From NCBI GenBank assembly GCA_004963905.1, contig SUGL01000001.1, positions 484,978-548,977 on the forward strand: 64,000 nt of DNA, read 5' to 3'. Below, one piece after another: positions 16,075 through 63,006 of this stretch. Position 1 is the first letter of the stretch, and each line of letters opens with the position of its first letter. A model generated the notes under the pieces. That model worked only from the letters and a program-made list of their open reading frames with translations. It had not been told where the DNA came from and ran no database searches. The translations under genes and the position numbers were made by a program. Origin of the DNA: Mesorhizobium sp. GTDB lineage: Bacteria; Pseudomonadota; Alphaproteobacteria; Rhizobiales; Rhizobiaceae.

Positions 16075-17352
16075 TCAACCGTTGAATTTATAGGCGGCAA
16101 TGGAATCCGGTTTCATCTCGATAGAGAAACCGGGCGCCTGGGGCGGCATGTAGGCCGCGTTCTCGATGACGCAGGGATCGAGGAAATGCTCGTGCAGGTG
16201 ATCGACATATTCGATCACCCGGTCCTGCTTCGTGCCTGACACAGCGACGTAGTCGATCATCGACAGATGCTGGACATATTCGCACAAGCCCACCCCGCCG
16301 GCATGCGGCCAGACCGGCAGACCGAACTTGGCGGCGATCAGAAGCACCGCCAGCACCTCGTTGAGCCCGCCCATACGGCAGGAATCGATCTGCACGACGT
16401 CGATGGCGCCGCCGGCGATGAACTGCTTGAACATGATGCGGTTCTGGCACATCTCGCCGGTCGCGACCTTGATCGGCGCCACGGCCTTGCGGATCTTGGC
16501 GTGGCCGGCGACGTCGTCGGGGCTGGTCGGCTCCTCGATGAAGAAGGGCTTGGCGAAGGCCAGATCGCGCAGCCAGTCGATCGCCTGGCCGACCTCCCAA
16601 ACCTGGTTCGCGTCGATCATCAGGTAGCGGTCCGGACCGATCACCTCGCGGGCGATCCTGAGGCGGCGGATGTCGTCGGCGCGGTCGCGGCCGACTTTCA
16701 GCTTGATGTGATCAAAACCCTGGTCGACCGCTTCCTGGCAGAGCCGCCGCAGCTTGTCGTCCGGATAGCCGAGCCAGCCGGCCGATGTGGTGTAGCAGGC
16801 ATAGCCTTCGCGCTCGAGCGTGGCGATGCGCTCGGCCTTGCCGGCCTCGGCCTTCTTCAAAATCTCCAGCGCCTCGGTCGGCGTGATCGCGTCGGTGAGA
16901 TAGCGGAAGTCGACGATGCGGACGATCTCTTCCGGGCTCATCTCGGCGACCAGGCGCCAGACCGGCTTGCCGGCTTCCTTCGCCCACAGGTCCCAGACCG
17001 CATTGACCACCGCGCCGACGGCGAGATGCATGGCGCCCTTGTCTGGGCCGATCCAGCGCAACTGGCTGTCGCCGGTCACATGATGCCAGAAACGGCCGGG
17101 ATCCTCTCTGACCCAGTCGAGGTCGAGCCCGACGACGAGATGGCGCAGCGCCTCGATCGCCGCGCAGCAGATCTCGTTGCCGCGGCCGATGGTGAAGGTG
17201 AGGCCATGGCCCTTCAGCGAGGGCACGTCGGTGTCGAGGATGACGTAGGCCGCGGAATAATCCGGGTCGGGGTTCATCGCGTCCGACCCGTCGAGGCTTT
17301 GCGACGTCGGAAAGCGCAGGTCGAAGACGCGAAGATCGGTAATGCGGGTCAT
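16075..17352 (-). CDS. L-fuconate dehydratase (enolase superfamily)
   Basis: This is a 425-residue enolase-superfamily dehydratase. The active-site set is complete: Lys217-x-Lys219 (HIKLKVG), metal ligands Asp247 (MIDANQ), Glu274 (FIEEPT) and Glu300 (TGEM), and His350 (PHAGG). Spacing and numbering match characterised L-fuconate dehydratase closely (Lys220, Asp248, Glu274, Glu301, His351, recalled). It would convert L-fuconate to 2-keto-3-deoxy-L-fuconate. It is the last gene of a ten-gene leftward operon and follows an SDR suited to the next step. The ATG at 17350-17352 is chosen; the frame is open further upstream only as a shadow of that SDR gene. Confidence 0.88.
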   Translation of the reverse strand: MTRITDLRVFDLRFPTSQSLDGSDAMNPDPDYSAAYVILDTDVPSLKGHGLTFTIGRGNEICCAAIEALRHLVVGLDLDWVREDPGRFWHHVTGDSQLRWIGPDKGAMHLAVGAVVNAVWDLWAKEAGKPVWRLVAEMSPEEIVRIVDFRYLTDAITPTEALEILKKAEAGKAERIATLEREGYACYTTSAGWLGYPDDKLRRLCQEAVDQGFDHIKLKVGRDRADDIRRLRIAREVIGPDRYLMIDANQVWEVGQAIDWLRDLAFAKPFFIEEPTSPDDVAGHAKIRKAVAPIKVATGEMCQNRIMFKQFIAGGAIDVVQIDSCRMGGLNEVLAVLLIAAKFGLPVWPHAGGVGLCEYVQHLSMIDYVAVSGTKQDRVIEYVDHLHEHFLDPCVIENAAYMPPQAPGFSIEMKPDSIAAYKFNG

Positions 17353-17365
17353 GCTCACTGCCTCA

Positions 17366-18097
17366 TCAGATCGACCAGCCGCCGTCGATATTATAGGCCT
17401 GTCCGGTCGTATAGGTGGCGCCGGCGAGATAGACGGCAAGATCGGCAATCTCCTCAGCCGTGCCCAGCCTGCCCATCGGTTGGCGGGCGATGAAGGCCGC
17501 GCGAGCCGCTTCGTAATCGCCCTGCGCGCGCATGCGGCTTTCGAGCGACGGGCTCTCCACCGTGCCGGGGCAGATTGCGTTGCAACGGATACCTTTGGCG
17601 ACATAGTCGGCGGCGATCGATTTGGTCAGGCCGATCACGGCCGCCTTGGTCACGCCATAGGCGAAGCGGTTGGGCACGCCTTTCGGCGCGCCGGCGACCG
17701 AGGACATGTTGATGATCGCGCCGTCGCTACGCTCCAGCATGCCGGGCAGCACGGCGCGGATGGTGCGGATCATGGCGCGCACATTGAGATTGAAGGCGAA
17801 GTCGAGGTCCTCGTCCTTCATGTCGAGGATCGAGCCGGAATGGACGAAGCCGGCGCAGTTGAACAGCACGTCGACACGGCCGATCTCGGCGAAAGCCGTT
17901 TTGACAGCTTCGTCGTTCAGCACGTCGAGCTTGCGGGTGAAGATCCCTTTATGGCCGTTGAGCTCGGCGAGTGCAGCTTCGTTGATGTCGGTGGCGTGGA
18001 CAGTGGCGCCGGCGGCAGCGAAGGCGAGCGTGCTTGCCCGACCGATGCCCTGCGCCGCCGCGGTAACGACAACGATTTTCCCCGTAAGATCAGCCAT
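17366..18097 (-). CDS. SDR oxidoreductase, probable 2-keto-3-deoxy-L-fuconate dehydrogenase
   Basis: This is a 243-residue classical SDR with TAAAQGIG near the N-terminus, the FNCAGFVHSGSILD segment and a YGVTK active site. The FNCAGFVH-type segment is shared with the DHRS6-like branch, which includes bacterial 2-keto-3-deoxy-L-fuconate dehydrogenases. It lies 13 bp upstream of the fuconate dehydratase gene, so it would oxidise that enzyme's product to the 2,4-diketo sugar acid. A 3-hydroxybutyrate dehydrogenase role is the alternative within this branch, made less likely by context. Confidence 0.82.
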   Translation of the reverse strand: MADLTGKIVVVTAAAQGIGRASTLAFAAAGATVHATDINEAALAELNGHKGIFTRKLDVLNDEAVKTAFAEIGRVDVLFNCAGFVHSGSILDMKDEDLDFAFNLNVRAMIRTIRAVLPGMLERSDGAIINMSSVAGAPKGVPNRFAYGVTKAAVIGLTKSIAADYVAKGIRCNAICPGTVESPSLESRMRAQGDYEAARAAFIARQPMGRLGTAEEIADLAVYLAGATYTTGQAYNIDGGWSI

Positions 18098-18576: not shown

Positions 18577-19650
18577 CTACGGTTTTGCGGCGAGCGGCGT
18601 CGCCGGCGCGGCGCTCGATTTATAGGCGGCCTCGACCAGCGCCATCGTGTTCCAGGCGTCCTCGACGGAACTGATCAGCTCGGCGTCTTCGCCAGACGCG
18701 AAGCGCTGGATATTGCCCATGCGCCCGACAAAGGCGTCGGGGAACCATTCGCCAATGAGCGGCACGCTGACCCAGTCGGAGCCACCTTTGGGATAGATCT
18801 CGAGCACGTCGGGCTCGCCGCGCGGATAGTCGAGATTGAGGCCGAGCTTGACATAGGCGGCGCCCTCGGTGCCGCAGATGCGGAACTCGCAGGCCTGATG
18901 CCGGCGGCCGAACTTGTGGTCGTGGTTGATCGAAAGCGCGCAGCGCACCGTGTCGCCATAGTCGAGGATGGCGCTGGTGCGGGTCTGCGCGACTTTGTGA
19001 TTGGGGTGGCCGAGGGTTTTCGCGTGAACCCCCTTGGGGTCGCCCAAGAGCTGCCGGATCAGGTCGAGATAGTGGATCGAATGCATGGCGATCTCGACGC
19101 GCGGCGCCTTGAGCAGAAATTCCCAGAGCTGCCACGGCGTCGCGAGCGCCAGCCAGGCGTCGAAGTCCACGACCTCGCCGAGCCAGCCCTTGGCGATCGC
19201 GTCCTTCAGCGCCAGCATCATCGGCGCGAAGCGGAGCTGGAAATTCACGGCAGCCTTGAGCTTCTTGGCGCGGCAGATTTCGAGGATCTCGGTCGCCTCG
19301 CCGAGATAGTTGCCCATCGGCTTCTGGATCAATGCGACCGCATCGTCGGGCAGAGCCTTCAGGACCTCGGCGTGCCGGCCGGGCGGCGTTGCGAGATCGA
19401 AGATCGCGTCCTTGACGGCGGCCGCCTCGTCCACCGAGCGGAACGCCGTCACGCCCCACTGCTCAGCCAGTTTTCCGGCCTTGGCATGGTCGGGATCGTA
19501 GAGGCCGGCAACCGGAAAGCCGGCCTTGCGATAGGCCGGAAAATGCGCGTCGCCGACGATCGAGCCGGCGCCGAAGGTGACGATTGGGCGCGGCTTCGCA
19601 GGCGCCGGCCAGGACTGCGCCAGCGATGCGGGATCGAAAGCGTCAGTCAT
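18577..19650 (-). CDS. Gfo/Idh/MocA-family oxidoreductase
   Basis: This is about 357 residues with an N-terminal Rossmann domain ([21 protein letters not shown]). The EKP cofactor motif is replaced by QKPMG at the family's usual place, and the C-terminal alpha/beta domain carries [14 protein letters not shown]. Members oxidise sugars or inositols with NAD(P). The ATG at 19648-19650 overlaps the mutarotase stop; a start at 19665 is also possible. The Lys of the EKP motif is kept (QKP), so activity is plausible. This could supply the sugar dehydrogenase step that the L-fucose set otherwise lacks, which is inference. Confidence 0.83.
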
Positions 19651-19972
19651 GGTGGAAGACTTCATCCATCATCGCCCACCATTCGCCTTCCTGCCTAGTC
19701 GGCAACGGTTCCTGGCAAGGCATGCAGACCGCCCACCATTCCTGGGTCTTGGGGTCCGCGGCCATCTTGGCCATGTCGGCGGCGTAGTCGGTGCCGTGAT
19801 ATTCGTAATAGGAGAACAGCAGGTTCTCCGGCCGCTTGAGGTAGATCGAGTAGTTCCTGATGTTGCAGGCCGAGATCGTCTTGAGCACCTCCGGCCACAC
19901 GGCGGCGTGCAGGCGCACATATTCCTCGACCTTCTCCGGCTTCAGGCCGAGCACCATGCCCATTCGCTGCAT
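19643..19972 (-). CDS. L-rhamnose/L-fucose mutarotase family protein
   Basis: This 109-residue protein belongs to the RhaM/FucM (DUF718) family. It has His22 in RLHAAVWPEV, matching the catalytic His22 of RhaM, and the SIYLKRPENLLFSYYEYHG core. It interconverts alpha and beta anomers of 6-deoxy sugars, consistent with an L-fucose or L-rhamnose locus. It is tightly coupled, 1 bp after the upstream enolase-superfamily gene and overlapping the Gfo/Idh gene. Confidence 0.88.
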   Translation of the reverse strand: MQRMGMVLGLKPEKVEEYVRLHAAVWPEVLKTISACNIRNYSIYLKRPENLLFSYYEYHGTDYAADMAKMAADPKTQEWWAVCMPCQEPLPTRQEGEWWAMMDEVFHHD

Positions 19973-19973: not shown

Positions 19974-21095
19974 TCAGTTCCTCCGTTCGGTGATTGTGAC
20001 GCTGAATTCGGCGATGCTGCGCGCCTTGAGCGCATCGAAATCCCAGTCGATGCCGAGGCCCGGCTCGCTCGGCGCCAGCGCATGGCCGTTCTCGATCACC
20101 ATCTTCTTGCCCGTCAACTCGTCCAGCTGCGGAATGTACTCGACATATTTGCCGTTCGGCACCGCGCAGGCCAGGCTGACATGCAGTTCCATCAGGAAAT
20201 GCGGACAGATGGGCATGTCGAAGGCTTCCGCCATATGCGCCACCTTCAGCCAGGGCGTGATGCCACCGATGCGGCCGACATCGGCCTGCACGATGTTGCA
20301 GCCGCCCCTCTGCATATATTCGCGGAAATGACGGATCGAATAAAGCGACTCGCCGACCGCCACCGGCGTAGCGGTCGAATTCGACAGCCGCACATGGCCG
20401 TCGATGTCGTCGGCCGGCAGCGGCTCCTCGATCCAGGCGAGATCGAGATCGCGCAGCCGCTCGGCGCGGCGGATGGCCTCGTCGACGGAAAACCCCTGGT
20501 TGCAGTCGGTCATGATCTCGTAGCCGTCGCCGACAGCCTTTCGCACGGCCGAAAGCCGGGCGAAGTCCTCCGAGCCGTGCGGCTTGCCGATCTTGACTTT
20601 GGAGCCGGTGAAGCCTTTCGCCTTGGCGGCTACCGCATCCTCGACGAGCGCTTCCGTCTCGATGTGCAACCAGCCGCCTTCGGTGGTGTAGAGCGGGCAG
20701 CGGTCCTTGGCGCCGCCGGCAAGTTTCCAGAGCGGCAGCTTCTGCTTCCGCGCCCGCAGATCCCAGAGCGCGGTGTCGATCGCGGCGAGTGCGATTGCCG
20801 TGATGGCGCCGATCGTCGTGGCATGGGTCGCGAATTCGAGATCGTGCCAGATGGCCTCGATCCGGTCGGCGTCCTCACCGATCAGACGCGGCGCCAGGTG
20901 ATCGGCCAGAAGCCGCATCACCGAAGAGCCGCCGGTGCCGATCGTGTAGGAATAGCCCACGCCGACTGCGCCGTCGGCGTCGGTGATGGTGACGATCGGC
21001 GTCTCCTGGCTGACGAAACTCTGGATGGCGTCGGTGCGCTTCACCTTCGGCACCAGATCGACCATTGCAAGCTCGACTTTCTCGATCTTCGCCAT
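19974..21095 (-). CDS. mandelate-racemase-subgroup enolase superfamily enzyme
   Basis: This is 373 residues. The full mandelate racemase catalytic set is visible: Lys166-x-Lys168 (SKVKIG), metal ligands Asp197 (MTDCNQ), Glu223 (WIEEP) and Glu249 (VGES), and the Asp272/His299 dyad (PHF). Each is offset by two from mandelate racemase numbering as recalled. Members are mostly sugar-acid dehydratases or epimerases. It is a second enolase-superfamily enzyme in the same operon as the fuconate dehydratase, so it probably handles a different acid or stereoisomer. The substrate cannot be read from the sequence. Confidence 0.85.
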   Translation of the reverse strand: MAKIEKVELAMVDLVPKVKRTDAIQSFVSQETPIVTITDADGAVGVGYSYTIGTGGSSVMRLLADHLAPRLIGEDADRIEAIWHDLEFATHATTIGAITAIALAAIDTALWDLRARKQKLPLWKLAGGAKDRCPLYTTEGGWLHIETEALVEDAVAAKAKGFTGSKVKIGKPHGSEDFARLSAVRKAVGDGYEIMTDCNQGFSVDEAIRRAERLRDLDLAWIEEPLPADDIDGHVRLSNSTATPVAVGESLYSIRHFREYMQRGGCNIVQADVGRIGGITPWLKVAHMAEAFDMPICPHFLMELHVSLACAVPNGKYVEYIPQLDELTGKKMVIENGHALAPSEPGLGIDWDFDALKARSIAEFSVTITERRN

Positions 21096-21097: not shown

Positions 21098-22195
<1,098 letters not shown>

Positions 22196-22199
22196 CGGA

Positions 22200-23066
22200 T
22201 CAACCTTTCACCGCGCCGGAGGTCAGGCCGCCGACGAGGTGCTTTTGCACGATGAAGGTGAGGATAAGCGCCGGAATGATCATCACCACGGCCAGCGCGC
22301 ACATGCCGCGCCAGTCGATGGTGAATTCGGCGGTGTAGTCGAGCAGCCCGACGGGCAGCGTCTTGGAATTGATCGAGCGCGTCAGCTGCGAGGCCAGCGC
22401 AAACTCGTTCCAGGAGGTGAGGAAAGCGAAGATGCCGGCGGACGCGATGCCTGGGCCGGCGAGCGGGAACTCGACCTGCCAGAAGGCCTGCCAGCGCGTG
22501 CAGCCGTCGATCTGCGCCGCCTCGGCAAGATCCTTCGGCACCTGGCGGAAGAAGCCGTCGATCAGCCAGATGGTGAAAGGCACGTTGAGCGCGACATAGG
22601 CCAGGATCAGGCCGAAATGCGTGTCGATGATGTCGAGACGCGCATAGACGAAGAACAGCGGCAGGGAGAGCGCGATGCCGGGCACGGTGCGCGTCAGCAT
22701 CAGGCCGAGGAACATCGCCGACTTGCCGCGGAAGCGGTAGCGCGCGAAGGCGTAGCCGCCGGCCATGCCGATGGCGATGGCAATCACGGTCGACGTCACC
22801 GAAATGATCAGCGAATTGCGGAAATAGTCGAGGACGGGAATGCCGCCCTTGCCGACGCCGCTGAACATGGCGATGTAGGCGTCGAGCGAGACCTGTTGCG
22901 GAATCCAGACCGGCGGCTTGGCCAGGATCTCGACCGTCGGCCGCAGCGACGACAGCACGATCCAGATGCCGGGCAGGCAGATGAAAAGCATGGCGAGGAA
23001 CAGGCCGACGCGATGTGCGACGACGCCAGCGCGGCGTTTGAGGCGGGCGGATGCGTTGGCGTCCAT
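22200..23066 (-). CDS. sugar ABC transporter permease (CUT1, MalG type)
   Basis: This is a 288-residue inner-membrane permease with about six hydrophobic spans, a CUT1 N-terminus (IWIVLSSLRPTVEIL) and the EAA loop LAEAAQIDGCTRWQAFWQVEFPLAGPGI. The ATG at 23064-23066 overlaps the end region of the other permease gene with a 2-bp gap. A much longer open frame upstream is a shadow of that gene. Confidence 0.9.
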   Translation of the reverse strand: MDANASARLKRRAGVVAHRVGLFLAMLFICLPGIWIVLSSLRPTVEILAKPPVWIPQQVSLDAYIAMFSGVGKGGIPVLDYFRNSLIISVTSTVIAIAIGMAGGYAFARYRFRGKSAMFLGLMLTRTVPGIALSLPLFFVYARLDIIDTHFGLILAYVALNVPFTIWLIDGFFRQVPKDLAEAAQIDGCTRWQAFWQVEFPLAGPGIASAGIFAFLTSWNEFALASQLTRSINSKTLPVGLLDYTAEFTIDWRGMCALAVVMIIPALILTFIVQKHLVGGLTSGAVKG

Positions 23067-23068
23067 TC

Positions 23069-23965
23069 TCACCACTCCGCGCCGATCTGGGTGCGCGCCG
23101 CCGCGAGCTTCCTGAAGAAATAGACGGTGAAGACGATCGACAGCAGGATCGAGAAATAGGCCATGGCATTGGCGACGCCCATGCGCGCGTCGCTGTAGGC
23201 GGTGCGTGCGACCAGCGTCCACAACAGTTCCGTGCGGCCGGCCGGGCCGCCGTCGGTCATGATCTTGACGATGTCGTAGGCGCGCGCGACGTCGAGCGAG
23301 CGGATGGTCATGGCGATATAGGCGAAGGGCATGATGAAGGGCCAGGTCACATAGCGAAAGGTCTGCCACGGCGTGCAGCCGTCGACGCGCGCCGCCTCGA
23401 CCGGCTCCTTCGGCATGGCGAGCAGGCCGGCCAGGATCAGGATCGCGAAGATCGAGGTCGACGACCAGATCTCGGCGATGGAGATGGCGATGAAGGCGAG
23501 ATGGCCTTCGATCAGCCAAGGGATCGCGTCCTGCGTGATGCCCAGCGACTGCAGCGCGTTGTTCACCAGCCCGATATTGTCGTTGAACATGAACTTGAAC
23601 TGGAAGCCGACAAGGATCGGCGAGAACATCATCGGGAACATCATTATGGTGCGCAGCAGCCGCTGGCCGCGGCTCGCCTTCTCGACCAGCAGCGCCAGGC
23701 CGAGCCCCAGCAGCATCTCGAGATTGAGCGCAATGGTGAGCAGAAGCACGGTGCGGCCGAAGGCCCACCAGAAATTCGCGTCGGACAGAATGTTGCGATA
23801 GTTGCGCAGGCCGATGAAGGTGAAGAAGGTTTCCGGCCGCGTCAGCCTGAACGGCGTGAAGCTGGAATAAAACGACAGGCAGAGCGGCACGACCACCACG
23901 GCCGCAAGCACGAGCACGGCCGGCAGCAGAAGAAGGGTTGGCGCGGAGAGCCGCTTGGCCGTCAT
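23069..23965 (-). CDS. sugar ABC transporter permease (CUT1, MalF type)
   Basis: This is a 298-residue permease with an N-terminal span (LLLLPAVLVLAAVVVVPLCLSFYSSF) and the EAA loop VEAARVDGCTPWQTFRYVTWPFIMP. The ATG at 23963-23965 is preferred over a TTG four codons upstream. It pairs with the MalG-type permease and follows the binding protein after a 106-bp gap that contains a strong hairpin. Confidence 0.9.
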   Translation of the reverse strand: MTAKRLSAPTLLLLPAVLVLAAVVVVPLCLSFYSSFTPFRLTRPETFFTFIGLRNYRNILSDANFWWAFGRTVLLLTIALNLEMLLGLGLALLVEKASRGQRLLRTIMMFPMMFSPILVGFQFKFMFNDNIGLVNNALQSLGITQDAIPWLIEGHLAFIAISIAEIWSSTSIFAILILAGLLAMPKEPVEAARVDGCTPWQTFRYVTWPFIMPFAYIAMTIRSLDVARAYDIVKIMTDGGPAGRTELLWTLVARTAYSDARMGVANAMAYFSILLSIVFTVYFFRKLAAARTQIGAEW

Positions 23966-24071: not shown

Positions 24072-25385
24072 CTAGAGCTTGCCGGCGTCCTCGAGGATCT
24101 GCGTCGCCTTGGCGGCCGCGTCGTCGAGCGCCTGCTTGGAGGTCTTGTCGCCGAGGATGGCGGCCTGCAGCTCCGGATAGACGGCGTTGGAGATCTCGAT
24201 CCACTCCGGCGTCTGCGGCACCGGGAAGGCGTTCTTGGCGGCTTCCTGGAAGGCCTGCAGCACCTCGGTCTTGTAAGGATCGGACTTCGCCTGCTCGAGG
24301 TCCCATTCCCAGACCTTGGTGCGGGTGGGCAGCGGGCCGGCGGCTGCCTCCAGCTTCTGGCTGTCTTCATTGGTCAGCCACCAGACGAGCGAGGCGGCGG
24401 CTTCCTTGTTGGCGCAGTTCTCGGTCACCGAGAAGCCGTGCGCGCCGGACCAGCCCGAGCGCTTGCCGGACGAGCCCTTCGGCTGGACCTTGACGCCGAC
24501 ATTGCCGGCGACCTTCGACGATTTCGGGTCGTTGAAGAAGCCGGCCCAGCCCGGCCAGTCGAGGTTGATCGCCACGGTGCCGGACGCAAAACCCTGGCCG
24601 AGATCATCCCACAGATAGTTGGTCGTGCCGGCCGGCACCGCCTTGGCCTTGTAGAGGTTGACGAACCAGTCGAGCGCCTTGACGCCGGCCTCGGAATTGA
24701 AGGCCGGCTTGCCGTCCTTGTCGAGATATTCGCCGCCGTCGGCAATCACCATCTCGTAGAAGCGGCCGTTGATCGCCTCTTCCTTGCCGGCATATTGCGT
24801 GCCGTAGAAATCGGGCGGACTGGCAAAGAATTCCGCCTGCTGGGCCATCTCGTCGAAGGTGTCCGGCGGGGCGAGATCCTCGCCGTATTTCTCCTTATAG
24901 GCCTTCTTCTTGGCTTCGTCCTGATAGAGGCTCTTCTGGTAGTAGAGCGCCGAGACGTCGAACTGCGCGCGCGGCAGCATCACCAGCTTGCCGTCGAGCG
25001 TCCCCGCCGCGATGTTGGCTGGGACGAAGGCGTCGATCTCCTCCTTAGGCAAGAGCTTGGCGAGATCGGTGTAGATGCCCGGATATTGCGGCGCGAACGA
25101 GGTGTGGTTGGAACCGACGCACCAGGTGATCGAATTGGAGGCGATGTCCGACTTGATCTCCTTGTCGAGATCGAAGTGGTTCTTCTTGGAGATGACGTTG
25201 ACCTTGGCGCCGGTCGCCTTCTCCCACTCGCCGATGCGCTCGTAGAGCTTTTCGTATTGCTGGCCGCCGATCAGCTTGGCGTCGATGGTGACGCCGGGAA
25301 ACTTGCCCGGCAGGTCGGCCGCGAAGGCCGCGCCCGATGCCATGAGCAATGCGCCGGCGGCGACGCCGGAAAGCAGTCTGTTCAT
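24072..25385 (-). CDS. sugar ABC transporter extracellular binding protein (CUT1)
   Basis: This is a 437-residue family-1 solute-binding protein. It has a clear Sec signal (MNRLLSGVAAGALLMASGAAFA, cleavage after AFA). The mature part carries a typical NLDWPGWAGFF core and a WWLTNEDSQKL segment near the C-terminus. It is the first gene of the leftward ten-gene operon and faces the IclR gene across 157 bp. Together with the enzymes, L-fucose, another 6-deoxy sugar, or an oligosaccharide or glycoside of one is the probable ligand; this is inference. Confidence 0.9.
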   Translation of the reverse strand: MNRLLSGVAAGALLMASGAAFAADLPGKFPGVTIDAKLIGGQQYEKLYERIGEWEKATGAKVNVISKKNHFDLDKEIKSDIASNSITWCVGSNHTSFAPQYPGIYTDLAKLLPKEEIDAFVPANIAAGTLDGKLVMLPRAQFDVSALYYQKSLYQDEAKKKAYKEKYGEDLAPPDTFDEMAQQAEFFASPPDFYGTQYAGKEEAINGRFYEMVIADGGEYLDKDGKPAFNSEAGVKALDWFVNLYKAKAVPAGTTNYLWDDLGQGFASGTVAINLDWPGWAGFFNDPKSSKVAGNVGVKVQPKGSSGKRSGWSGAHGFSVTENCANKEAAASLVWWLTNEDSQKLEAAAGPLPTRTKVWEWDLEQAKSDPYKTEVLQAFQEAAKNAFPVPQTPEWIEISNAVYPELQAAILGDKTSKQALDDAAAKATQILEDAGKL

Positions 25386-52784: not shown

Positions 52785-52796
52785 GCTGATCGACAC

Positions 52797-52823: not shown

Positions 52824-52874
52824 GCCCGGCCAGGCGCCGTTGGCGGCAAAGACACCGGCACCGGCGCCTGACCT

Positions 52875-52990: not shown

Positions 52991-53009
52991 GCGACGGGAA
53001 TAGATTGAG

Positions 53010-53993
53010 ATGAGCGAGCTTACACACGCCCCCGCGCAAAGACGTTCGATCGGCGGCCAGCTTCTGGGCGGCAGCCAGCTCGTGCTCGGTGTCATCCTGG
53101 CGGTGCTGTGCATCGCCATCTCGATCGCTGCGCCGCAGTTCTATTCGGAGGCCAACATCATCGCCATCCTGCGCCAATGCGCGCTGGTGCTGATCGTCGC
53201 CTCGGGCATGACCATGCTCATCATCACGGCGGAGGTCGACCTGTCGGTCGGAGCATCGCTCGCCTTCGTCGGCTGCATCGGCATGGCGGTGCTCAATTCC
53301 ACACACAGCCTTGCGCTCGGCATGCTGGCGGCTCTTGCTTTTGCCGGCGGCGTCGGCTTGTTCAACGGGCTGGTCGTCACCAGGCTGCGGGTGAACTCGC
53401 TGATCGCCACCATCGGCACGATGATGATGCTGCAGGGCGGCGTCTATCTGTTCACACGCGAGGCGGTGCAAAACCACAATCAGCTGGCGAGCTTTACCGA
53501 TCTCGGCGCCGGCTATGTCGGCGCGGTGCCGGTTCCCGTCATCCTGGCGGCACTGATCTTCGCGGTCGCCTATGTGACGCTGCGCTTCACCACGCTCGGC
53601 CGTTATCTCTACGCGGTGGGGGCCAATGAAAGGGCGGTGCGCCTGTCCGGCCTGCGCTCGGAATGGCTCAAGCTGTTCGCCTTCGTGGTCACCGGCCTTT
53701 GTGTCGGCGTCGCCGGCATGATCCTGTCGTCGCTGATGAATGCCGGCCAGCCGACCGCCGGCCGCGGCTTCGAACTGACGGTCATCGCCGCCGTCATCCT
53801 CGGCGGCACCAGCCTGCTCGGCGGCCGCGGCTCGCTGTTCGGCACCTTACTCGGCGTGCTGGTGCTGAAGGTGATCGACAACGGCATCATCATTCTCGGC
53901 TGGAACCAGGACCTGCAGATGGTGGTGCCTGGCGTCGTCATCATCCTGGCGACTTATCTCGACATCATCCGGAACAAAGCCAATGTCCGTTGA
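53010..53993 (+). CDS. ribose-type ABC transporter permease (RbsC family)
   Basis: This is a 327-residue permease with about eight to ten spans. It has the RbsC signatures ALVLIVASGMTMLIITAEVDLSVGASLAFVG and GRYLYAVGANERAVRLSGL. It overlaps the ATPase start by 11 bp. Confidence 0.9.
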   Translation: MSELTHAPAQRRSIGGQLLGGSQLVLGVILAVLCIAISIAAPQFYSEANIIAILRQCALVLIVASGMTMLIITAEVDLSVGASLAFVGCIGMAVLNSTHSLALGMLAALAFAGGVGLFNGLVVTRLRVNSLIATIGTMMMLQGGVYLFTREAVQNHNQLASFTDLGAGYVGAVPVPVILAALIFAVAYVTLRFTTLGRYLYAVGANERAVRLSGLRSEWLKLFAFVVTGLCVGVAGMILSSLMNAGQPTAGRGFELTVIAAVILGGTSLLGGRGSLFGTLLGVLVLKVIDNGIIILGWNQDLQMVVPGVVIILATYLDIIRNKANVR

Positions 53994-55515
53994 TTTCCTG
54001 CATCCCGGCGAAGGCACGGCCATCGACACGAATGTGCCGGCGCTGGAACTGCGCGGCATCGGCAAGCGCTTCCCGGGTGTCGTGGCGCTGGACAATGTCG
54101 ACTTCACCCTGGAACCCGGCAAGATCCACGCCTTGATGGGCGAAAACGGCGCCGGCAAGTCGACGCTGATCAAGATCATGGCTGGCGTCTACGGCAAGGA
54201 CGCCGGCACCATCCGCATGCGCGGACGTGAGGTCGACATCAAGTCGCCGCGCGACAGCCTGAAAGAAGGCATCAAGGTCGTGTTCCAGGAGATCGCCTTG
54301 ATCTCCGAGTTCACCGTCGCCGAAAACATCTTCCTCGAAGGCTATCCGACCGGCAAAGCCGGCTCGATCGACTGGAAGAAGATCCGTACCGATTCAGCAG
54401 CACTGTTCAACCGCATTGGCTTCAATGTCGATCCGGCGGCGCGGACCGGATCGCTGCCCGTCAGCCAGCAGCAGATGGTCGAGATCGCCCGCGCGCTTGC
54501 CCACGAGGCGCGCGTCGTGGTGATGGACGAACCGACGTCCTCGCTGACGCCGAACGAAGTCTCGCTGCTGTTCACCGTCATCCGCCGTCTGGCGGCCCTC
54601 GGCATCGCGGTGGTCTATGTCAGCCACAAGCTCGACGAAGTGTTCGAGATCGCCGACACGGTGACCGTGCTGCGCGACGGACGCCACATCTCGACCAGAA
54701 AGATCGGCGAGCACAGCAACGACACGCTGATCCAGGACATGATCGGCCGGCGCATCGACAATCTGTTCCCCCGCAAGCGCGGCGCGGCGGGCAGCAAGGT
54801 GGCGCTGTCGGTGGAAAATCTCAGCACGGCGAAGAAGCTGGACGACGTGTCCTTCGAGGCGCGTGCCGGCGAGGTGCTCGGCTTCTTCGGATTGATGGGG
54901 GCGGGCCGCACCGAGCTCGCCAAGGCGATCGTCGGCTACGATCCGATCACTTCGGGCACGATCACGGTCGACGGCCAGCGCCTTGCGCCGCACGACACGC
55001 GCACCGGCGTCAAGCTCGGCATCGGCCTGCTCACCGAGGATCGCAAGAGCGAAGGACTGATGAGCGAGCTGCCCGTCTACCAGAATGCCAGCCTCGCCTC
55101 GCTCGGCGCGTTCGCCCGCATGGGCTTCGTCGACAAGGCGAAGGAGCACAGAGCGGTGCAGGACTATGTCGACCGTTTCCGCATCAAGACACCCAGCCTG
55201 TTCCAACAGGTGAAGAACCTGTCGGGCGGCAACCAGCAGAAGGTGCTGATCTCGCGCTGGCTGATGCGGGGTCTGAAAGTCATCGTCGTTGACGAACCGA
55301 CACGCGGCATCGACGTCGGCGCCAAATCGGAAATCTTCGCGCTGATAGACCGGCTTGCCGGCGAGGGTTTGGCGGTCGTCATGATGACGTCGGAGATGCC
55401 CGAACTGCTCGGTCTTGCCGACCGCATCGCGGTGATGTGCGAGGGCCGCCTGACCGCGATCATGCCGCGCGAGGAAGCCACGCAGGAGAAGATCCTCAAT
55501 GCGGCGATCGGGTGA
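53983..55515 (+). CDS. ribose-type ABC transporter ATPase (RbsA family, duplicated)
   Basis: This is a 510-residue two-domain ATPase. In the N half, Walker A is GENGAGKST and Walker B is VVVMDEPTSSLT; the signature segment there is TGSLPVSQQQMVEIARAL. In the C half, Walker A is degenerate (GFFGLMGAGRTELAKAI), the signature is LSGGNQQKVLISRWL and Walker B is VIVVDEPTRGIDVGAK. This is standard for RbsA proteins. It works with two RbsC-type permeases. Confidence 0.92.
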   Translation: MSVDFLHPGEGTAIDTNVPALELRGIGKRFPGVVALDNVDFTLEPGKIHALMGENGAGKSTLIKIMAGVYGKDAGTIRMRGREVDIKSPRDSLKEGIKVVFQEIALISEFTVAENIFLEGYPTGKAGSIDWKKIRTDSAALFNRIGFNVDPAARTGSLPVSQQQMVEIARALAHEARVVVMDEPTSSLTPNEVSLLFTVIRRLAALGIAVVYVSHKLDEVFEIADTVTVLRDGRHISTRKIGEHSNDTLIQDMIGRRIDNLFPRKRGAAGSKVALSVENLSTAKKLDDVSFEARAGEVLGFFGLMGAGRTELAKAIVGYDPITSGTITVDGQRLAPHDTRTGVKLGIGLLTEDRKSEGLMSELPVYQNASLASLGAFARMGFVDKAKEHRAVQDYVDRFRIKTPSLFQQVKNLSGGNQQKVLISRWLMRGLKVIVVDEPTRGIDVGAKSEIFALIDRLAGEGLAVVMMTSEMPELLGLADRIAVMCEGRLTAIMPREEATQEKILNAAIG

Positions 55516-55572
55516 GGTCATGACGCTTCGCGGCGGCATTCCTTGCGTTCAGTCCTTCGAAGGGAGCAAGCG

Positions 55573-56568
55573 ATGAGCCTTACAAGCACGGCTTCCGCAA
55601 AAGCCGAGCCGTCCATGCTGGGGCGGCTCTTTGCCAGGCAGGAACTGGCGCTGCTGGTGTGCCTGGTCCTGGTGCTGGTGTTCTTTTCCGCCACGGTCGA
55701 GAATTTCCTCTCCGTGCGCAACATGACCAACGTGCTCGGGCAGGCCTCGCTCGCGCTCACCGCCGGCATCGGCTGCGCCATCGTCTTCATTTCCGGCGAG
55801 GTCGACATTTCGATCGGTTCGCTACTGGCGACCATCGCCTTGCCGCTGATCATCATCATGAACGACACCAACTCGCTGCTGCTCGGCGTCGGCGGCGCGC
55901 TGCTGTTCGGGCTGATCATCGGTGTGGTGAACGGCTATCTCACCGCCTATGCCGGCATCAACTCGCTGATCGTGACGCTCGGCACCATGTTCATCATGCG
56001 CGGCGGCGTCTATCTCTACACCGGCCAGCGCGCGATCCCCGACGATGCCGCCCTCGACAGCTTCATCGCGCTCTCGGACGGCCGCCTGTTCAACATCATC
56101 CCCTATTCGGCGGTCATCGCCATCGTGCTCCTCGCCGCATTCGGCTACATGATGCAGCACCGGCCGTTCGGGCGGCAGATCTATGCGGTCGGCGGCAACC
56201 AGGAAGTGGCGCGGCTGGCGGGCTACGACGTGCGGCGCGTCAAGTTCGTCTGCTTCATCATCAGCGCGCTGCTGGCGACGGTTGCCGGCATCATCCTGGC
56301 GGCGCGCGTCGGCTCGGCGCAGCATACGGCCGGACTGAACTTCGAATTCCAGGTCGTCGCCGCGACGGTGCTCGGCGGGGTGAGCCTCGCCGGCGGCATC
56401 GGCAGCCTGACCGGCATGGCGCTCGGCGTCCTGATCCTGCAGTTCCTGTCCAACGGCCTGCGCGGGCTCGGGCTGCCGACCGAATGGCAGCTGGTCATCA
56501 CCGGCATGATCATCATCGCCGCGGTCGCCTTCGACGAAGCGAAACGCCGGCGCGCGAACGGAGGCTGA
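55573..56568 (+). CDS. ribose-type ABC transporter permease (RbsC family)
   Basis: This is a 331-residue permease with the signature ALTAGIGCAIVFISGEVDISIGSLLATIAL and GRQIYAVGGNQEVARLAGY. AAGGGAG precedes the ATG at 55573; an in-frame upstream start at 55543 is less likely. It is a second, non-identical permease, giving a probable heterodimeric channel. Confidence 0.9.
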   Translation: MSLTSTASAKAEPSMLGRLFARQELALLVCLVLVLVFFSATVENFLSVRNMTNVLGQASLALTAGIGCAIVFISGEVDISIGSLLATIALPLIIIMNDTNSLLLGVGGALLFGLIIGVVNGYLTAYAGINSLIVTLGTMFIMRGGVYLYTGQRAIPDDAALDSFIALSDGRLFNIIPYSAVIAIVLLAAFGYMMQHRPFGRQIYAVGGNQEVARLAGYDVRRVKFVCFIISALLATVAGIILAARVGSAQHTAGLNFEFQVVAATVLGGVSLAGGIGSLTGMALGVLILQFLSNGLRGLGLPTEWQLVITGMIIIAAVAFDEAKRRRANGG

Positions 56569-56569: not shown

Positions 56570-57355
56570 ATGGCTCGTCTTGAAGGAAAAACCGCTGTCA
56601 TCACCGGCGCCGCCGACGGCATCGGCCACGCGATCGCCGAGGCGATGGCGCGGGAAGGGGCGCATGTCTTTCTCAGTGACATCGCCGACAAGGCAGGCGA
56701 GGATTTCGCGGCGGCACTGCGCGCCGCCGGCCACCTGGCCGATTATGTCCGTTGCGACGTTTCGCAGGAAGCCGACATCGCCGGCCTCATCGATGCGGCC
56801 GTCAGGAAGACCGGGCGCCTCGACGTCCTGGTCAACAACGCCGCCATCGCCATCGGCGGCATGCCGGTGCACGAGATGACCGACGAGCAATGGCACCGGC
56901 TGATCGCGGTCAACCTGACCAGCGTCTTCCGCGGCTGCAAATACGCGCTGCCGCACATGATCGCGCAGAAGTCGGGCTCGATCATCAACATGGCTTCCGC
57001 GCAAGGCCATATCGGCCTCGACGGTTGGACCGCCTATGCCGGCGCCAAGGGAGCGGTGATGGCGATGACGCGCCAGATGGCGGTCGAGTTCGGTCCGATG
57101 AACGTCCGCGTCAACTCGATCTCGCCGGGCACCATCAACACGCCGATGAACGACAGGCTGATCAAGGAGATCGGCGGCAATCTCGCCAAGGCCTGGGTCA
57201 AGATGCATCCGCTCGGCCGCATCGGCGAGCCTTCCGAAGTGGCCGAGGCCGCCGTCTATCTCGCCTCGGATGCGGCCGGCTTCACCACCGGCACCGACCT
57301 GCGCGTCGATGGCGGGCTGACCGCCGCGCCGCGCTACGTCCCCGAACTGCTTTGA
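56570..57355 (+). CDS. SDR family oxidoreductase
   Basis: This 261-residue SDR has TGAADGIG near residue 12, NNAAIAIGG for NNAG, and a YAGAK active site. The C-terminal LRVDGGL is FabG-like. It lies 1 bp after a permease and 19 bp before the CaiB gene. It is probably an alcohol/ketone dehydrogenase of the sugar-acid pathway. Confidence 0.87.
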   Translation: MARLEGKTAVITGAADGIGHAIAEAMAREGAHVFLSDIADKAGEDFAAALRAAGHLADYVRCDVSQEADIAGLIDAAVRKTGRLDVLVNNAAIAIGGMPVHEMTDEQWHRLIAVNLTSVFRGCKYALPHMIAQKSGSIINMASAQGHIGLDGWTAYAGAKGAVMAMTRQMAVEFGPMNVRVNSISPGTINTPMNDRLIKEIGGNLAKAWVKMHPLGRIGEPSEVAEAAVYLASDAAGFTTGTDLRVDGGLTAAPRYVPELL

Positions 57356-57374: not shown

Positions 57375-58580
57375 ATGAACAAGGCCCTCGAAGGCGTCCG
57401 CATCCTCGATTTCAGCCATCTGCTGCAGGGACCGTTCGCCACGCAGCTGCTCGGCGACATGGGCGCCGATGTCATCAAGATCGAGCGGGCCGGCGCCGGC
57501 GACATGTTCCGCGGCATGACCTTCTTCGCCAAATGGGTCGGCGGCTCCGAGAGCCCGAACTTCCTCGCCTGGAACCGCAACAAGCGCTCGATCGCGCTCA
57601 ACCTGAAAAGCCGCAAGGTGCATGCCGTCATCATGGAGATGGCCCGGACCGCCGACGTGGTGGTGCAGAATTTCCGTCCCGGCGTGCTGGCCAAGCTCGG
57701 CTACGGCTACGAGGATTTCAAGGCCGTCAATCCGCGCATCATCTACTGCTCGGGTTCGGGCTATGGCGAGGAAGGCCCTTACGTCGAGCGCCCCGGCCAG
57801 GACATGCTTATCCAGGGGCTGGCCGGGCTGATCGCCAACACTGGCCGCGGCGACCAGGCTCCGGTTCCGGCCGGCGCCGGTCTCGCCGACCAGATCGGCG
57901 CCATGAACATGGTATACGGCATATTGTCGGCGCTCTACTATCGCGAGAAGACCGGCAAGGGCCAGAAGATCGAGGTCAATCTGCTGGCCGGGCTGCTCGC
58001 GCATCTCAACCAGGAATATGTTGCCGTGCTCAATCTCGGCGAGGATTTCGTGCGGCCGAATTCCGGCATCGGCCACCCCGGCATGCAGGCGCCGTTCGGC
58101 ATCTACGAGACGAGCGACGGCGGCTACGTGTCGATCGCCATGAGCCCGTTCAAGACGCTTTACGAGGTGCTGGGGGCGCCGCAGCTCGCCGTCTATGACG
58201 ACCTGAAGACGCTGTTCGACAAACGCGACGAGGTCTTCGAGAAGGTCAATGCCGAGACGAAGAAATTCGCCACGCAGGATCTTTTGGCGCGGCTTCTGGA
58301 GGCCGACATCTGGTGCGCCGAGGTAAAGGACATCCGCCGCGCGGCGGAAGACCCGCAGGTCACGCATATGGGCATGATCACCAGCTACGACCATCCGCGC
58401 GGCGGCAAGGTGCGGGTGGTGGCGCCCGCCGTCAAGATGAGCGAGACGCCCGCGACCATCGAACGGCCGGCGCCATTGGTCGGCCAGCATGGGCGCGAGA
58501 TCCTCGCCGAGTTCGGCCTGTCGAAGGACGAGATCGCCGCACTCGAGGCGTCCGGCGACATGACCGTGGACGCGGCCTGA
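57375..58580 (+). CDS. CaiB/BaiF family (class III) CoA-transferase
   Basis: This is a 401-residue class III CoA-transferase: GVRILDFSHLLQGPFATQLLGDMGADVIKIERAGAGD, QNFRPGVLAKLGYGYEDF, and the catalytic aspartate in RPGQDMLIQGLAG. It is related to the transferase at 28419-29573. It precedes enoyl-CoA hydratase by 2 bp. Together they suggest that an acid is activated to CoA, hydrated and later released. Confidence 0.88.
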   Translation: MNKALEGVRILDFSHLLQGPFATQLLGDMGADVIKIERAGAGDMFRGMTFFAKWVGGSESPNFLAWNRNKRSIALNLKSRKVHAVIMEMARTADVVVQNFRPGVLAKLGYGYEDFKAVNPRIIYCSGSGYGEEGPYVERPGQDMLIQGLAGLIANTGRGDQAPVPAGAGLADQIGAMNMVYGILSALYYREKTGKGQKIEVNLLAGLLAHLNQEYVAVLNLGEDFVRPNSGIGHPGMQAPFGIYETSDGGYVSIAMSPFKTLYEVLGAPQLAVYDDLKTLFDKRDEVFEKVNAETKKFATQDLLARLLEADIWCAEVKDIRRAAEDPQVTHMGMITSYDHPRGGKVRVVAPAVKMSETPATIERPAPLVGQHGREILAEFGLSKDEIAALEASGDMTVDAA

Positions 58581-58582: not shown

Positions 58583-59365
58583 ATGGGCGCCTACCGGACA
58601 CTCACGGTCGAAATCTCGCGCCGCGTCGCTGTCGTCACCTTCCGGCGCGCCGACCAACTCAACGCCATGAATCGGCTGATGCAAGGCGAGATCACCGATG
58701 CCTTCGAGGCGCTGTCCGCCGATGCGGACGTCGGCGCGATCGTGGTGACCGGCGAGGGGCGCGGCTTCATGGCCGGCGCCGACATCAAGGAATATGCCGC
58801 GCAGACAGGGCCGGAGTTCGACAGCTTCCAGGCTGCCGGCATGCGCATGTACGCGGCGATCGAGAACAACCGCAAACCGGTGATCGCCGCGGTCAACGGC
58901 TTCGCCTTGGGCGGCGGCATGGAGCTCGTGCTGTGCTGCGACATCGTGATCGCCAACCAGTTCGCCAAACTCGGCCTGCCGGAGATCAAGCTCGGGCTGA
59001 TCCCCGGCGGCGGCGGCACGCAACGCAGCGTCGCCAAGCTCGGCCGCAACCGCGCCAATCTTCTGCTGATGACGGGTGCGATCGTGCCGGCTTCCGAATT
59101 CGTCGGTGCCGGCCTGGTCAACGAGATCGTCGATGTCGACGCCCTGATGCCGCGCGCGCTGGAATTGGCCAAGATGATCGCCGCCGAGCCTGCCGCCGCG
59201 ATCGAAGGCCTGAAGGCCCTGACGGCGCATGCGGTGTCGGGCGAACTAGCCGATGGCCTCGCCATGGAGCGCGACATACTGGGCGGTCTCTATCGCAGCG
59301 AGATCGGCCAGCGGCGCGTCAAGGAGTTCGCCGAGAGAAGTGTTGCGAAGAAGGCCAGCCCATGA
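58583..59365 (+). CDS. enoyl-CoA hydratase/isomerase family protein (crotonase)
   Basis: This is a 260-residue crotonase with the oxyanion hole segment GRGFMAGADIKEYA and both catalytic-type glutamates (GGGMEL and LPEI) in place. It is consistent with hydratase activity on an unsaturated acyl-CoA. The stop overlaps the next gene (ATGA). Confidence 0.88.
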   Translation: MGAYRTLTVEISRRVAVVTFRRADQLNAMNRLMQGEITDAFEALSADADVGAIVVTGEGRGFMAGADIKEYAAQTGPEFDSFQAAGMRMYAAIENNRKPVIAAVNGFALGGGMELVLCCDIVIANQFAKLGLPEIKLGLIPGGGGTQRSVAKLGRNRANLLLMTGAIVPASEFVGAGLVNEIVDVDALMPRALELAKMIAAEPAAAIEGLKALTAHAVSGELADGLAMERDILGGLYRSEIGQRRVKEFAERSVAKKASP

Positions 59366-60375
59366 AGGGTGACGGTTATCGCGGCCTCGGCTGGGCGCAT
59401 GGCGCGCTGACCGTCCAGCGCCTCGGCGCGATGCTGGCGCCGGTGACGTTCGTGCTCGCCGACGGGCGTCAGGTTTCGCCTATGCATATTGCTCCCTGGT
59501 CGAACGAACGGCAACCGGAGGCGCTGCCGGGCATTCTGCGCAGGCTGCGCGGCGAGTGGCCCTGCGTGCCTTTCGGCTATTCGGCGCCTGCCGAGGGGTG
59601 GCCCGAGGCCTGGACGCGTGTCATGGAACCTCCGGCGCCGGACGAAGAAATCCATGGCCACAGCTGCAATCATGAGTGGACATGGCGCGACAGCGAGCCC
59701 GGGTCATTGTCGCTATCGCTTTCCTACCCCAAGGGGAGTCCGGTCGAACGCGCCGAACGAACGGTGAGGCCTGATCCGTCGGCGCCGGCCATCGACATTG
59801 AGTTCCGGGTATTCGTCCGCCGTGCGTGCCGCCTGCCGATCGGCCTGCATCCGGTGTTCCGGCTGCCGTTCGAGACGGGCGCCGCCACGCTGGAGCTTGG
59901 CGGCTTCGACGAAGGCCGCACCTATCCGCACGATGTCGAACCCGGCGCGGCGCTGTTTGCCAGGAACAAGACCTTCTTCGAGCTGATAGCGGTGCCGGCG
60001 CGCGCCGGGGGAACGATCGACGCCTCCCGTTTGCCCTTGGCCGCCGACACGGAAGAGTTGCTGCAGATCGAAGGCGTCGACGGTATCGCCGCGCTCGCCA
60101 ACCATGAGGATGGCTACCGGGTTCAGCTATCCTGGCAAAAGGAGCATTTCCCAAGCCTTCTGCTCTGGTACTCCAATCGCGGCCGCAAGGCAGCGCCCTG
60201 GAACGGACGTCACGTCGCCATCGGCATCGAGCCGATCTGCTCGCCCTTCGGGCTCGGCCCCGCGACCGCGCTTGCCGACAATCCCATCGCGCAATCCGGC
60301 ATCGCGACGGCGCTGGAGTTCTCGCCCGAAAAGCCGTTCGTGACCCGCTACCGCATCGAGGCATCCGCGCTGTGA
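59362..60375 (+). CDS. aldose-epimerase-fold protein
   Basis: This 337-residue protein has the galactose mutarotase-like beta-sandwich: PMHIAPWSNERQ near the N-terminus, GHSCNHEWTW, and LPIGLHPVFRLP with a conserved His. The canonical epimerase catalytic His/Glu pair is only partly clear. It is coupled to the hydratase and the CoA-transferase-like gene by 4-bp overlaps. A sugar-acid-CoA or sugar mutarotase is possible. Confidence 0.7.
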   Translation: MKGDGYRGLGWAHGALTVQRLGAMLAPVTFVLADGRQVSPMHIAPWSNERQPEALPGILRRLRGEWPCVPFGYSAPAEGWPEAWTRVMEPPAPDEEIHGHSCNHEWTWRDSEPGSLSLSLSYPKGSPVERAERTVRPDPSAPAIDIEFRVFVRRACRLPIGLHPVFRLPFETGAATLELGGFDEGRTYPHDVEPGAALFARNKTFFELIAVPARAGGTIDASRLPLAADTEELLQIEGVDGIAALANHEDGYRVQLSWQKEHFPSLLLWYSNRGRKAAPWNGRHVAIGIEPICSPFGLGPATALADNPIAQSGIATALEFSPEKPFVTRYRIEASAL

Positions 60376-62159: not shown

Positions 62160-62169
62160 GGAGCGCTTC

Positions 62170-63006
62170 ATGGACAAACCGTTGCTCGACATGTCCGCCG
62201 CGCGCGTCTTCTTCGACGGCATCTTCAGCAATCCACGCGTCGCCCATCCGGAGGGTGTGGCCGTCCACCGCGATGGCTCGATCTGGTGCGGCACCGAAAC
62301 CGGCGATCTCCTGAGGTTCGCCGCCGATGGCAGTTCGGTCGAGCGCATGGGCGGCACGGACGGCTTTCTGCTCGGCATTGCCTTCGACAGCGCCGGCAAT
62401 TGTTTCGCCTGCGATCTCAGGCATGCCGCGATCTTCCGCTGGGACGCCGCGACGGGTCGAATGGAACGTTTCGCTGCCGCAGGCATCCGCGTGCCCAACT
62501 ATCCGGTTATCGATGAGGCGAGAGGCTGGCTCTTCGTGTCGGACAGTGTCGGCGAGGACAATCGCTCGGGCATCTTTCGCTACGACCTTGAGACGGGCGA
62601 GGGCGGTCTGTGGTGCCGGGAGGCCATGTCCTTCGCCAACGGCATGGCCATGGCGCCGGACGGCAACGGCCTCTACGTGGTGGAAAGCGACGCGCCCTGC
62701 ATCAGTCATGTGCCGATCCTCGCCGACGGCAGCGCAGGGGCTCGGCAGGTCGTCGTCAAAGACGTGCGCAATGTTCCGGACGGCGTCGCCTTCGCGCCTG
62801 ACGGCTCGCTGTTCATCTCATGCTACGAGCCAAGCCGGATCTATCGCTGGCGAGAGGACCGAGGCCTCGAAGTGCTGATCGAGGATCCGGCGGCGACCAC
62901 GCTGGCGCACCCCACCAACATCGCCTTCAAGGGCGACAAGCTCTACACCGCCAATCTCGGCCGCTGGCACATCACCGAGATCGATCTGGGCGGGATCCCA
63001 GGCTGA
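62170..63006 (+). CDS. SMP-30/gluconolactonase family protein
   Basis: This is a 278-residue six-bladed propeller with the N-terminal HPEGVAVHRDGSIWCGTETG metal-binding Glu region, LGIAFDSAGN, FANGMAMAPDGNGLYVVES and VPDGVAFAPDGSLFISCYEPSRIYRW. Members hydrolyse sugar lactones in the periplasm or cytosol. It has no signal peptide. GGAG precedes the ATG at 62170. It is the last operon gene before the insertion sequence. Confidence 0.87.
   Translation: MDKPLLDMSAARVFFDGIFSNPRVAHPEGVAVHRDGSIWCGTETGDLLRFAADGSSVERMGGTDGFLLGIAFDSAGNCFACDLRHAAIFRWDAATGRMERFAAAGIRVPNYPVIDEARGWLFVSDSVGEDNRSGIFRYDLETGEGGLWCREAMSFANGMAMAPDGNGLYVVESDAPCISHVPILADGSAGARQVVVKDVRNVPDGVAFAPDGSLFISCYEPSRIYRWREDRGLEVLIEDPAATTLAHPTNIAFKGDKLYTANLGRWHITEIDLGGIPG

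Follow-up and report, generated by a model that had tools for sequence, protein, structure and literature searches.

Two sugar-acid gene clusters of Mesorhizobium sp. each encode a leaderless solute-binding protein (SBP) and a CaiB-type class III CoA-transferase, and this pairing recurs across distant bacteria. The clusters, here called loci A and B, lie in a stretch of 64,000 nucleotides (assembly GCA_004963905.1, contig SUGL01000001.1, positions 484,978 to 548,977 of the forward strand; the window) within a 7.06-Mb genome. We refer to the leaderless binding-protein family of the two loci as SBPc1. Its members lack a leader, form a discrete family and are tied to a single clade of CaiB proteins that retains the catalytic Asp. 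We tentatively propose, with a confidence slightly below even, that SBPc1, CaiB and a hydratase of either the crotonase or the MaoC type make up a cytosolic, CoA-dependent route of sugar-acid dehydration.

The pairing was quantified in a survey of 398 Pseudomonadota genomes, of which 18 carry SBPc1, in 23 copies; these counts are not phylogenetically independent, as seven of the 18 genomes belong to the genus of the window (its own genome included) and two more to its family. CaiB is encoded within 8 kb of SBPc1 in 23/23 cases and within 2.2 kb in 19 (start to start), the remaining four being B-type loci in which CaiB is about 7.5 kb away. For comparison, eight of 100 relatives of a leadered SBP from the same genomes have CaiB within 8 kb; when the 17 of these controls that sit inside SBPc1 clusters are set aside, the count is 1 of 83. 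In the reverse direction, a profile built from 19 linked CaiB proteins was run against 398 genomes from the same draw. It gave 28 matches of at least 487 bits, none outside the 18 SBPc1 genomes, with 27 lying in SBPc1 loci. The best matches below these (429 and 412 bits) belong to genome G035, where no SBPc1 was found; the genome searches for SBPc1 and for linked CaiB scored at most four candidates per genome.

Phylogeny sets the linked transferases apart. In a tree of 70 CaiB proteins, 46 from loci with SBPc1 or a second leaderless type (SBPc2, described below) form one clade with a single unlinked sequence (SH-aLRT 96), and the 19 other unlinked proteins and four known ones fall outside it, several on long branches; this was a quick tree, with 20 unlinked sequences of our own choice. 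The catalytic Asp, presumably equivalent to Asp169 of formyl-CoA transferase and placed on both window proteins, is kept in all 70 (46/46 linked, 20/20 unlinked and 4/4 known). Loss of this residue had been suspected from a motif near residue 200 and was rejected, since alignment to YfdW assigns it to D173 in CaiB-A and D172 in CaiB-B.

A wider table holds 42 SBPc1 loci (two from the window, 17 from plasmids and 23 from genome stretches, related genomes included). CaiB occurs within 12 kb in 38 of them, in 37 on the same strand, and an IclR regulator within 12 kb in 22. A preliminary description of the window had made co-occurrence of the leaderless protein with CaiB and IclR its test; the CaiB part of that expectation holds up in both surveys, while IclR proves a less constant companion. 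A match in G978 (locus L145, E 1.6e-24), located beside MalFGK-type genes, was removed from the table as a likely ordinary SBP. Among genome contigs, CaiB adjoins SBPc1 in 80/80 (the best 80 of 188; the distance is at most 100 bp in 79 and 182 bp in the other), a set composed almost entirely of Mesorhizobium and other Rhizobiales orthologs that we did not count as independent evidence. SBPc1 and CaiB also correlate in a mirror-tree comparison (r 0.66, against a permuted maximum of 0.21), but this mostly reflects shared ancestry and is likewise not taken as proof of contact. On pSymB of S. meliloti (L083), a block of argH, ATP-binding cassette (ABC) and PrpD genes parts the caiB-SBPc1 pair, which lies beside traA, from the rest of a fucose-type cluster.

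The sequence and fold of SBPc1 are those of a solute-binding protein (PF13416; Table 1), and it groups with MalE-type proteins in sequence searches as well as fold searches, the top Foldseek matches being mostly MalE-type SBPs (4.5e-11, from a low-confidence model). Its start codon immediately precedes strand 1. In nine of the 42 members an in-frame stop lies at most 18 codons upstream of a conserved N-terminal Trp, so near that no space is left for a signal peptide. A missed signal peptide was rejected on the basis of these stops and of 4-nt overlaps between the SBPc1 start and the caiB stop, which occur in the window (SBPc1-A with CaiB-A), L083, L088, L156 and L157. The protein is predicted to be cytosolic, and because of the in-frame stops its export by the general pathway is unlikely. 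Neighbouring transporters vary with the cluster (ABC, TRAP, MFS or RhaT), so SBPc1 is not a component of one importer.

SBPc1 ranges over Pseudomonadota, Actinomycetota (Streptomyces) and Bacteroidota (Persicobacter, Rufibacter); the best relatives of the binding protein in reference genomes are from Mesorhizobium (92% identity). Searches of 72,556 plasmids with SBPc1-A, SBPc1-B and a Streptomyces member (the latter two 37% and 38% identical to SBPc1-A) each returned 145 records at 154 places, as compared by totals and not record by record. These equal totals suggest that, at the search threshold used, the family is distinct from ordinary SBPs. Thirteen diverse members share 36 invariant positions, many of them polar (including R13, D56, D61, H62, D113, Y229, Q300 and R333), and the two arginines R13 and R333 would suit a carboxylate ligand.

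Every part that the preliminary description had listed for the two loci was recovered where it had been placed (gene calls and Pfam). Its idea of a repeated module is borne out for SBPc1, CaiB and IclR, which recur as close homologs (37%, 37% and 44% identity, the last over 216 residues), but most other parts differ in family: between A and B the importer is MalFGK-type or RbsABC-type, the dehydratase MR_MLE or UxuA, the lactonase a lactonase-type amidohydrolase or SMP-30, and the hydratase MaoC or crotonase. Short-chain dehydrogenases/reductases (SDRs), which form one large family, were left out of this comparison. As judged from sequence, the repeated unit is SBPc1, CaiB and IclR, embedded in two different sugar-acid clusters. 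Duplication of a whole locus was rejected, as the close homologs shared by the loci are these three and the remaining functions come from different families. Two SBPc1-family copies were found in the genome, both in loci A and B, and of its seven caiB genes two match the profile of linked CaiB proteins at E <= 1e-110, both of them in these loci (four of 27 candidates scored).

The MaoC and crotonase folds are unrelated, yet both catalyze the hydration of enoyl-CoA and the reverse dehydration. One or the other is encoded within 12 kb in 37 of the 38 CaiB-linked SBPc1 loci (21 with MaoC, 18 with crotonase, two with both); in S. meliloti locus L083 neither lies within the 12-kb range counted. Both catalytic Glu residues are present in 18/18 crotonases, locus B included and L158 left out of the count, and the D-x-x-P-x-H motif in 19 of 25 MaoC proteins (read by eye in L155). 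Because one cluster position is filled by either fold, the hydratase points to dehydration of a 3-hydroxyacyl-CoA, with the choice between crotonase and MaoC perhaps made by stereochemistry.

We hypothesize that SBPc1 is a former periplasmic binding protein retained in the cytosol, where it would bind a sugar acid for CaiB. CaiB would transfer CoA from a product thioester to the aldonate, and the crotonase or MaoC would take off the 3-hydroxyl as water across C2-C3 to give the enol of 2-keto-3-deoxyaldonyl-CoA. The 2-keto-3-deoxyacyl-CoA would then pass CoA on to another aldonate molecule, releasing a 2-keto-3-deoxy acid that could go into known FAH, SDR or aldehyde-dehydrogenase steps. The cycle could be primed by an AMP-forming ligase, such as those found, with CaiB close by, next to SBPc1 in L087 and next to SBPc2 in L155, or by the family I CoA-transferase of locus B. 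The CoA-dependent breakdown of sugar acids suggested in the preliminary description is compatible with the gene content of both loci; we infer each reaction, as well as the ligand and a physical contact between SBPc1 and CaiB. There is a real, if lesser, chance that these three proteins form a sugar-acid dehydratase of a new class, working as a CoA cycle: SBPc1 would present aldonates to CaiB proteins of a dedicated clade, and the hydratase fold would follow C3 stereochemistry. In Pseudomonadota, Actinomycetota and Bacteroidota, entire pathways would then rely on this class instead of the known families of dehydratase; SBPc2, together with a CaiB of its own, would form a sister system that extends to haloarchaea.

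Eight clusters in which a long FAH-family protein is encoded along with CaiB, SBPc1 and a hydratase (L089, L091, L121, L122, L130, L156, L157 and L159; FAH type checked) bear on this proposal. The FAH protein of L156 matches the solved structure 9kkt (9e-127; function not stated there, nor described in the literature searched) and 2-keto-3-deoxy-D-arabinonate dehydratase (8.5e-17, the only example tested). MR_MLE, UxaA and UxuA, sought within 12 kb, and IlvD, sought by tblastn, were found in none of the eight. By comparison, the usual dehydratase is present in six of nine FAH clusters without SBPc1 (Fisher p 0.009), with IlvD annotated in two, altronate dehydratase in two (one at the edge) and an MR_MLE-type enzyme in two; these nine controls, which span about 7 kb on each side, were selected by annotation and genus among 50 rows listed out of 280 records. 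Ensifer L221, for example, has an SDR, an aldose epimerase, an ABC transporter and FAH together with MR_MLE, and L122 has a similar set, but with CaiB, SBPc1 and crotonase. PF00920 genes lie more than 20 kb from SBPc1 in eight of nine genomes checked; in G223 one is about 8 kb away.

Several observations weigh against the proposed route. The main weakness is that window loci A and B both hold classical dehydratases (MR_MLE and UxuA), so that the CoA branch is not the sole dehydratase there and may serve a second sugar acid or another step. No dehydratase was found within about 7 kb on each side in three of the nine control FAH clusters either, and control L215 has a caiB gene at the cluster edge, beside IlvD. 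Neither window CaiB reaches an NCBIfam equivalog cut-off (best 219.8 and 250.8 of 750 bits), and the structure model of SBPc1 is weak (mean pLDDT 62.6). Six of the 25 MaoC proteins, all of a 183-aa type that includes MaoC-A2, lack the motif His, and in L132, L151 and L152 no other MaoC and no crotonase was seen. Four divergent SBPc1 genes (L141-L144) have MR_MLE genes as neighbours; the stretch examined around them, which is cut by contig ends in L141 and L142, includes SDR genes but no CaiB. A CaiB-crotonase cluster, L182, is without SBPc1, though the same genome has SBPc1 elsewhere, and SBPc1 may act in trans. Because of these exceptions (L141-L144 and L182), we regard SBPc1 as a sugar-acid-pathway protein first, with CaiB as its partner nearly always. 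The divergent genes may reflect an ancestral role of the family.

CaiB and the hydratase could instead act after carbon-carbon cleavage, on a hydroxy- or keto-acid (lactate, glycolate or a deoxy acid) that SBPc1 binds, which we consider unlikely though far from negligible. In L088, L090, L123 and L126, L-fucose-type short FAH hydrolases and dehydrogenases accompany a classical dehydratase, so that these clusters already possess the upstream steps. However, a late step would leave the eight long-FAH clusters without an upstream dehydratase, and neither crotonase nor MaoC would be expected, on general grounds, to act on lactate or glycolate.

Another possibility, which seems fairly improbable, is that SBPc1 is an intracellular ligand sensor working with IclR and that CaiB is a bystander in the same pathway. 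This would fit the overlap of SBPc1-B with iclR by one nucleotide, the adjacent IclR in B-type loci L133-L135, and divergent locus L142, which has IclR and no CaiB in the stretch seen. Yet IclR accompanies just 22 of the 42 loci against 38 for CaiB, other clusters have LacI or GntR instead, and it is CaiB that a dedicated clade links to SBPc1 (the clade test was run for CaiB, not IclR). Decidedly doubtful is a role of SBPc1 as an enzyme itself, e.g. an epimerase or dehydratase: other binding-protein folds have turned into enzymes (MqnA, HisG and others), L142-L144 retain SBPc1 without CaiB next to MR_MLE genes, and the invariant polar positions would agree with catalysis, but such residues are equally expected from one shared ligand, and cluster L182 lacks SBPc1. 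We consider it very improbable that SBPc1 serves an importer as a normal subunit whose start codon was missed or whose export is non-classical. Its Pfam match, its annotation as an extracellular solute-binding protein and the importers in both window loci would speak for this, but in-frame stops in 9/42 members exclude a leader, both window importers come with a leadered SBP of their own, and SBPc1 is also found next to TRAP, MFS and RhaT transporters and among Bacteroidota.

Clusters of the same type in Croceibacterium, Persicobacter, Rufibacter and the haloarchaeon Halostagnicola contain another leaderless kind of SBP, SBPc2, with a CaiB of the linked clade close by. SBPc2 was named when a second Persicobacter SBP, 15% identical, was taken out of the SBPc1 alignment. 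A search with SBPc2 gave five records of at least 37% identity among the best 25 of 1049, after which identity falls to 29%; its best relative in the window genome is 28% identical.

The genes of the two loci are listed in Table 1. No FAA_hydrolase match (FAH-type 2,4-diketo-3-deoxyfuconate hydrolase) was found among the 15 proteins of locus A scanned, the rest of the genome being unsearched, and a promoter scan of 25300-31600 gave nothing over chance level. Assignment of the 337-aa protein of locus B as an epimerase was rejected, its match to an annotated aldose epimerase being only E 0.017; relatives about 80% identical occur in B-type loci L134 and L135. The window also holds a cluster for ectoine/hydroxyectoine uptake and breakdown (2138-15996), in which EhuR, EhuA, EhuB, EutB, EutC, DoeA and DoeB each score above the NCBIfam cut-off. 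Between the loci is a polysaccharide island (30621-44383) encoding a GH5 cellulase-type protein, a Wzz chain-length protein, a flippase-like protein, glycosyltransferases including a WecG/TagA type, a GNAT acetyltransferase and an FAD enzyme; the island genes at 30621 and 31534 have no Pfam match at 1e-5.

Table 1. Genes of loci A and B in the window, and SBPc2 genes in other genomes (coordinates of the respective stretch).
Feature	Coordinates	Strand	Evidence
Locus A, L-fucose-type cluster	16075-30127		
L-fuconate dehydratase, MR_MLE	16075..17352	-	phmmer to 2hne/1yey L-fuconate dehydratase 1.2e-171
SDR dehydrogenase	17366..18097	-	PF13561 1e-53
MaoC-A1, MaoC hydratase, 150 aa	18116..18568	-	PF01575 6e-24; D-x-x-P-x-H intact (GDFFPHH)
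Gfo/Idh/MocA oxidoreductase	18577..19650	-	PF01408
RhaM-type mutarotase	19643..19972	-	PF05336 4e-36
Second MR_MLE, dehydratase-like, nearest talarate/galactarate type	19974..21095	-	PF13378 6e-68; NF047820 300.7 of 500 bits
MalFGK-type ABC importer A	21098..23965	-	ATPase 21098-22195; PF00005 and MalK OB fold
Importer A permeases	22200-23066, 23069-23965	-	PF00528 twice
Leadered sugar SBP, importer A	24072..25385	-	N-terminal hydrophobic leader; Roseibium counterpart annotated sugar SBP; no Pfam match at 1e-5
IclR regulator A	25543..26328	+	PF01614 9e-16, PF09339
Amidohydrolase, fuconolactonase-like	26404..27240	+	PF04909 5e-55; NF052480 92.7 bits, under cut-off 400
SBPc1-A, leaderless MalE-type binding protein, 382 aa	27274..28422	-	PF13416 7e-11
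CaiB-A, class III CoA-transferase	28419..29573	-	PF02515 1.2e-102, full length; Asp173 kept (alignment to solved structures)
MaoC-A2, MaoC-like, 183 aa	29576..30127	-	PF01575 4.3e-11; D-I-H-P-Y-V, Val replaces motif His
Locus B	44890-63006		
RraA-like aldolase	44890..45591	-	PF03737 4e-28
UxuA-like TIM barrel	45588..46712	-	PF03786 9e-49
SDR	46709..47494	-	PF13561 1.4e-58
GntR/FCD regulator	47512..48243	-	PF07729, PF00392
UxuA, mannonate dehydratase family	48431..49615	+	PF03786 4e-125
SBPc1-B, leaderless binding protein, 380 aa	49736..50878	+	PF13416 9e-12
IclR regulator B	50878..51726	+	PF01614 4e-26; 1-nt overlap with SBPc1-B
RbsABC-type importer	51753..56568	+	PF13407, PF02653 twice, PF00005
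RbsABC-type importer parts	leadered SBP 51753-52784, permease 53010-53993, ATPase 53983-55515, permease 55615-56568	+	
Second SDR	56570..57355	+	PF13561 3e-75
CaiB-B, class III CoA-transferase	57375..58580	+	PF02515 1.7e-105, full length; Asp172 kept (alignment to solved structures)
Crotonase	58583..59365	+	PF00378 5e-54; both catalytic Glu kept
337-aa protein	59362..60375	+	No Pfam or NCBIfam match
Family I CoA-transferase, 595 aa	60372..62159	+	PF01144 1.3e-23
SMP-30/gluconolactonase-type protein	62170..63006	+	PF08450 2.5e-18
SBPc2 genes near CaiB and MaoC	L084 5423-6610; L085 15445-16677; L154 10112-11239; L155 10001-11236		

The component families are already known; the pairing, the cytosolic binding protein and the proposed chemistry are undescribed in the literature searched, where we also found no paper on aldonyl-CoA, subscription papers being mostly outside reach. 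If the proposal is true, sugar acids are degraded via CoA thioesters, which would account for pathways with a missing dehydratase and correct the annotation of a family now labelled as extracellular binding proteins. The pairing opens direct tests in ordinary rhizobia.

In non-phosphorylative pathways, as described in the main text of PMC6336799, an aldose dehydrogenase, a lactonase and an acid-sugar dehydratase are followed in Route II by a KDP dehydratase; a word search of that text gave neither 'CoA' nor 'binding protein'. The L-fucose transporter of Herbaspirillum is among the examples in PMC11378808. The clusters studied here resemble these pathways in their SDR, lactonase-type, FAH-type and aldehyde-dehydrogenase genes and in the L-fuconate dehydratase of locus A, but the eight long-FAH clusters hold CaiB, SBPc1 and a hydratase in place of the four dehydratase families sought.

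The carnitine dehydration system consists of CaiB, CaiC and CaiD. Its CaiB-CaiD pair is matched here by a class III CoA-transferase with the catalytic Asp and a crotonase with both catalytic Glu residues, and the AMP-forming ligases in L087 and L155 recall CaiC. The differences are the sugar-acid context, the frequent replacement of crotonase by MaoC (in locus A too), the presence of a partner with an SBP fold, and scores of 92.8 (CaiB-A) and 132.5 bits (CaiB-B) for the L-carnitine CoA-transferase model NF002914, whose cut-off is 413 bits.

SBPc1 is related to MalE-type SBPs (MBP, LpqY, SmoF) by sequence and structure search, but it is leaderless and predicted to be cytosolic, and its link is to CaiB, not to any one importer. 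A precedent for leaderless SBP folds in new roles comes from cytosolic enzymes built on a binding-protein fold, such as MqnA, HisG and prephenate dehydratase, although to our knowledge these are neither MalE-type nor paired with a CoA-transferase. If the proposal is true, a MalE-type binding protein has gained a role as a cytosolic partner, the first such case that we know of.

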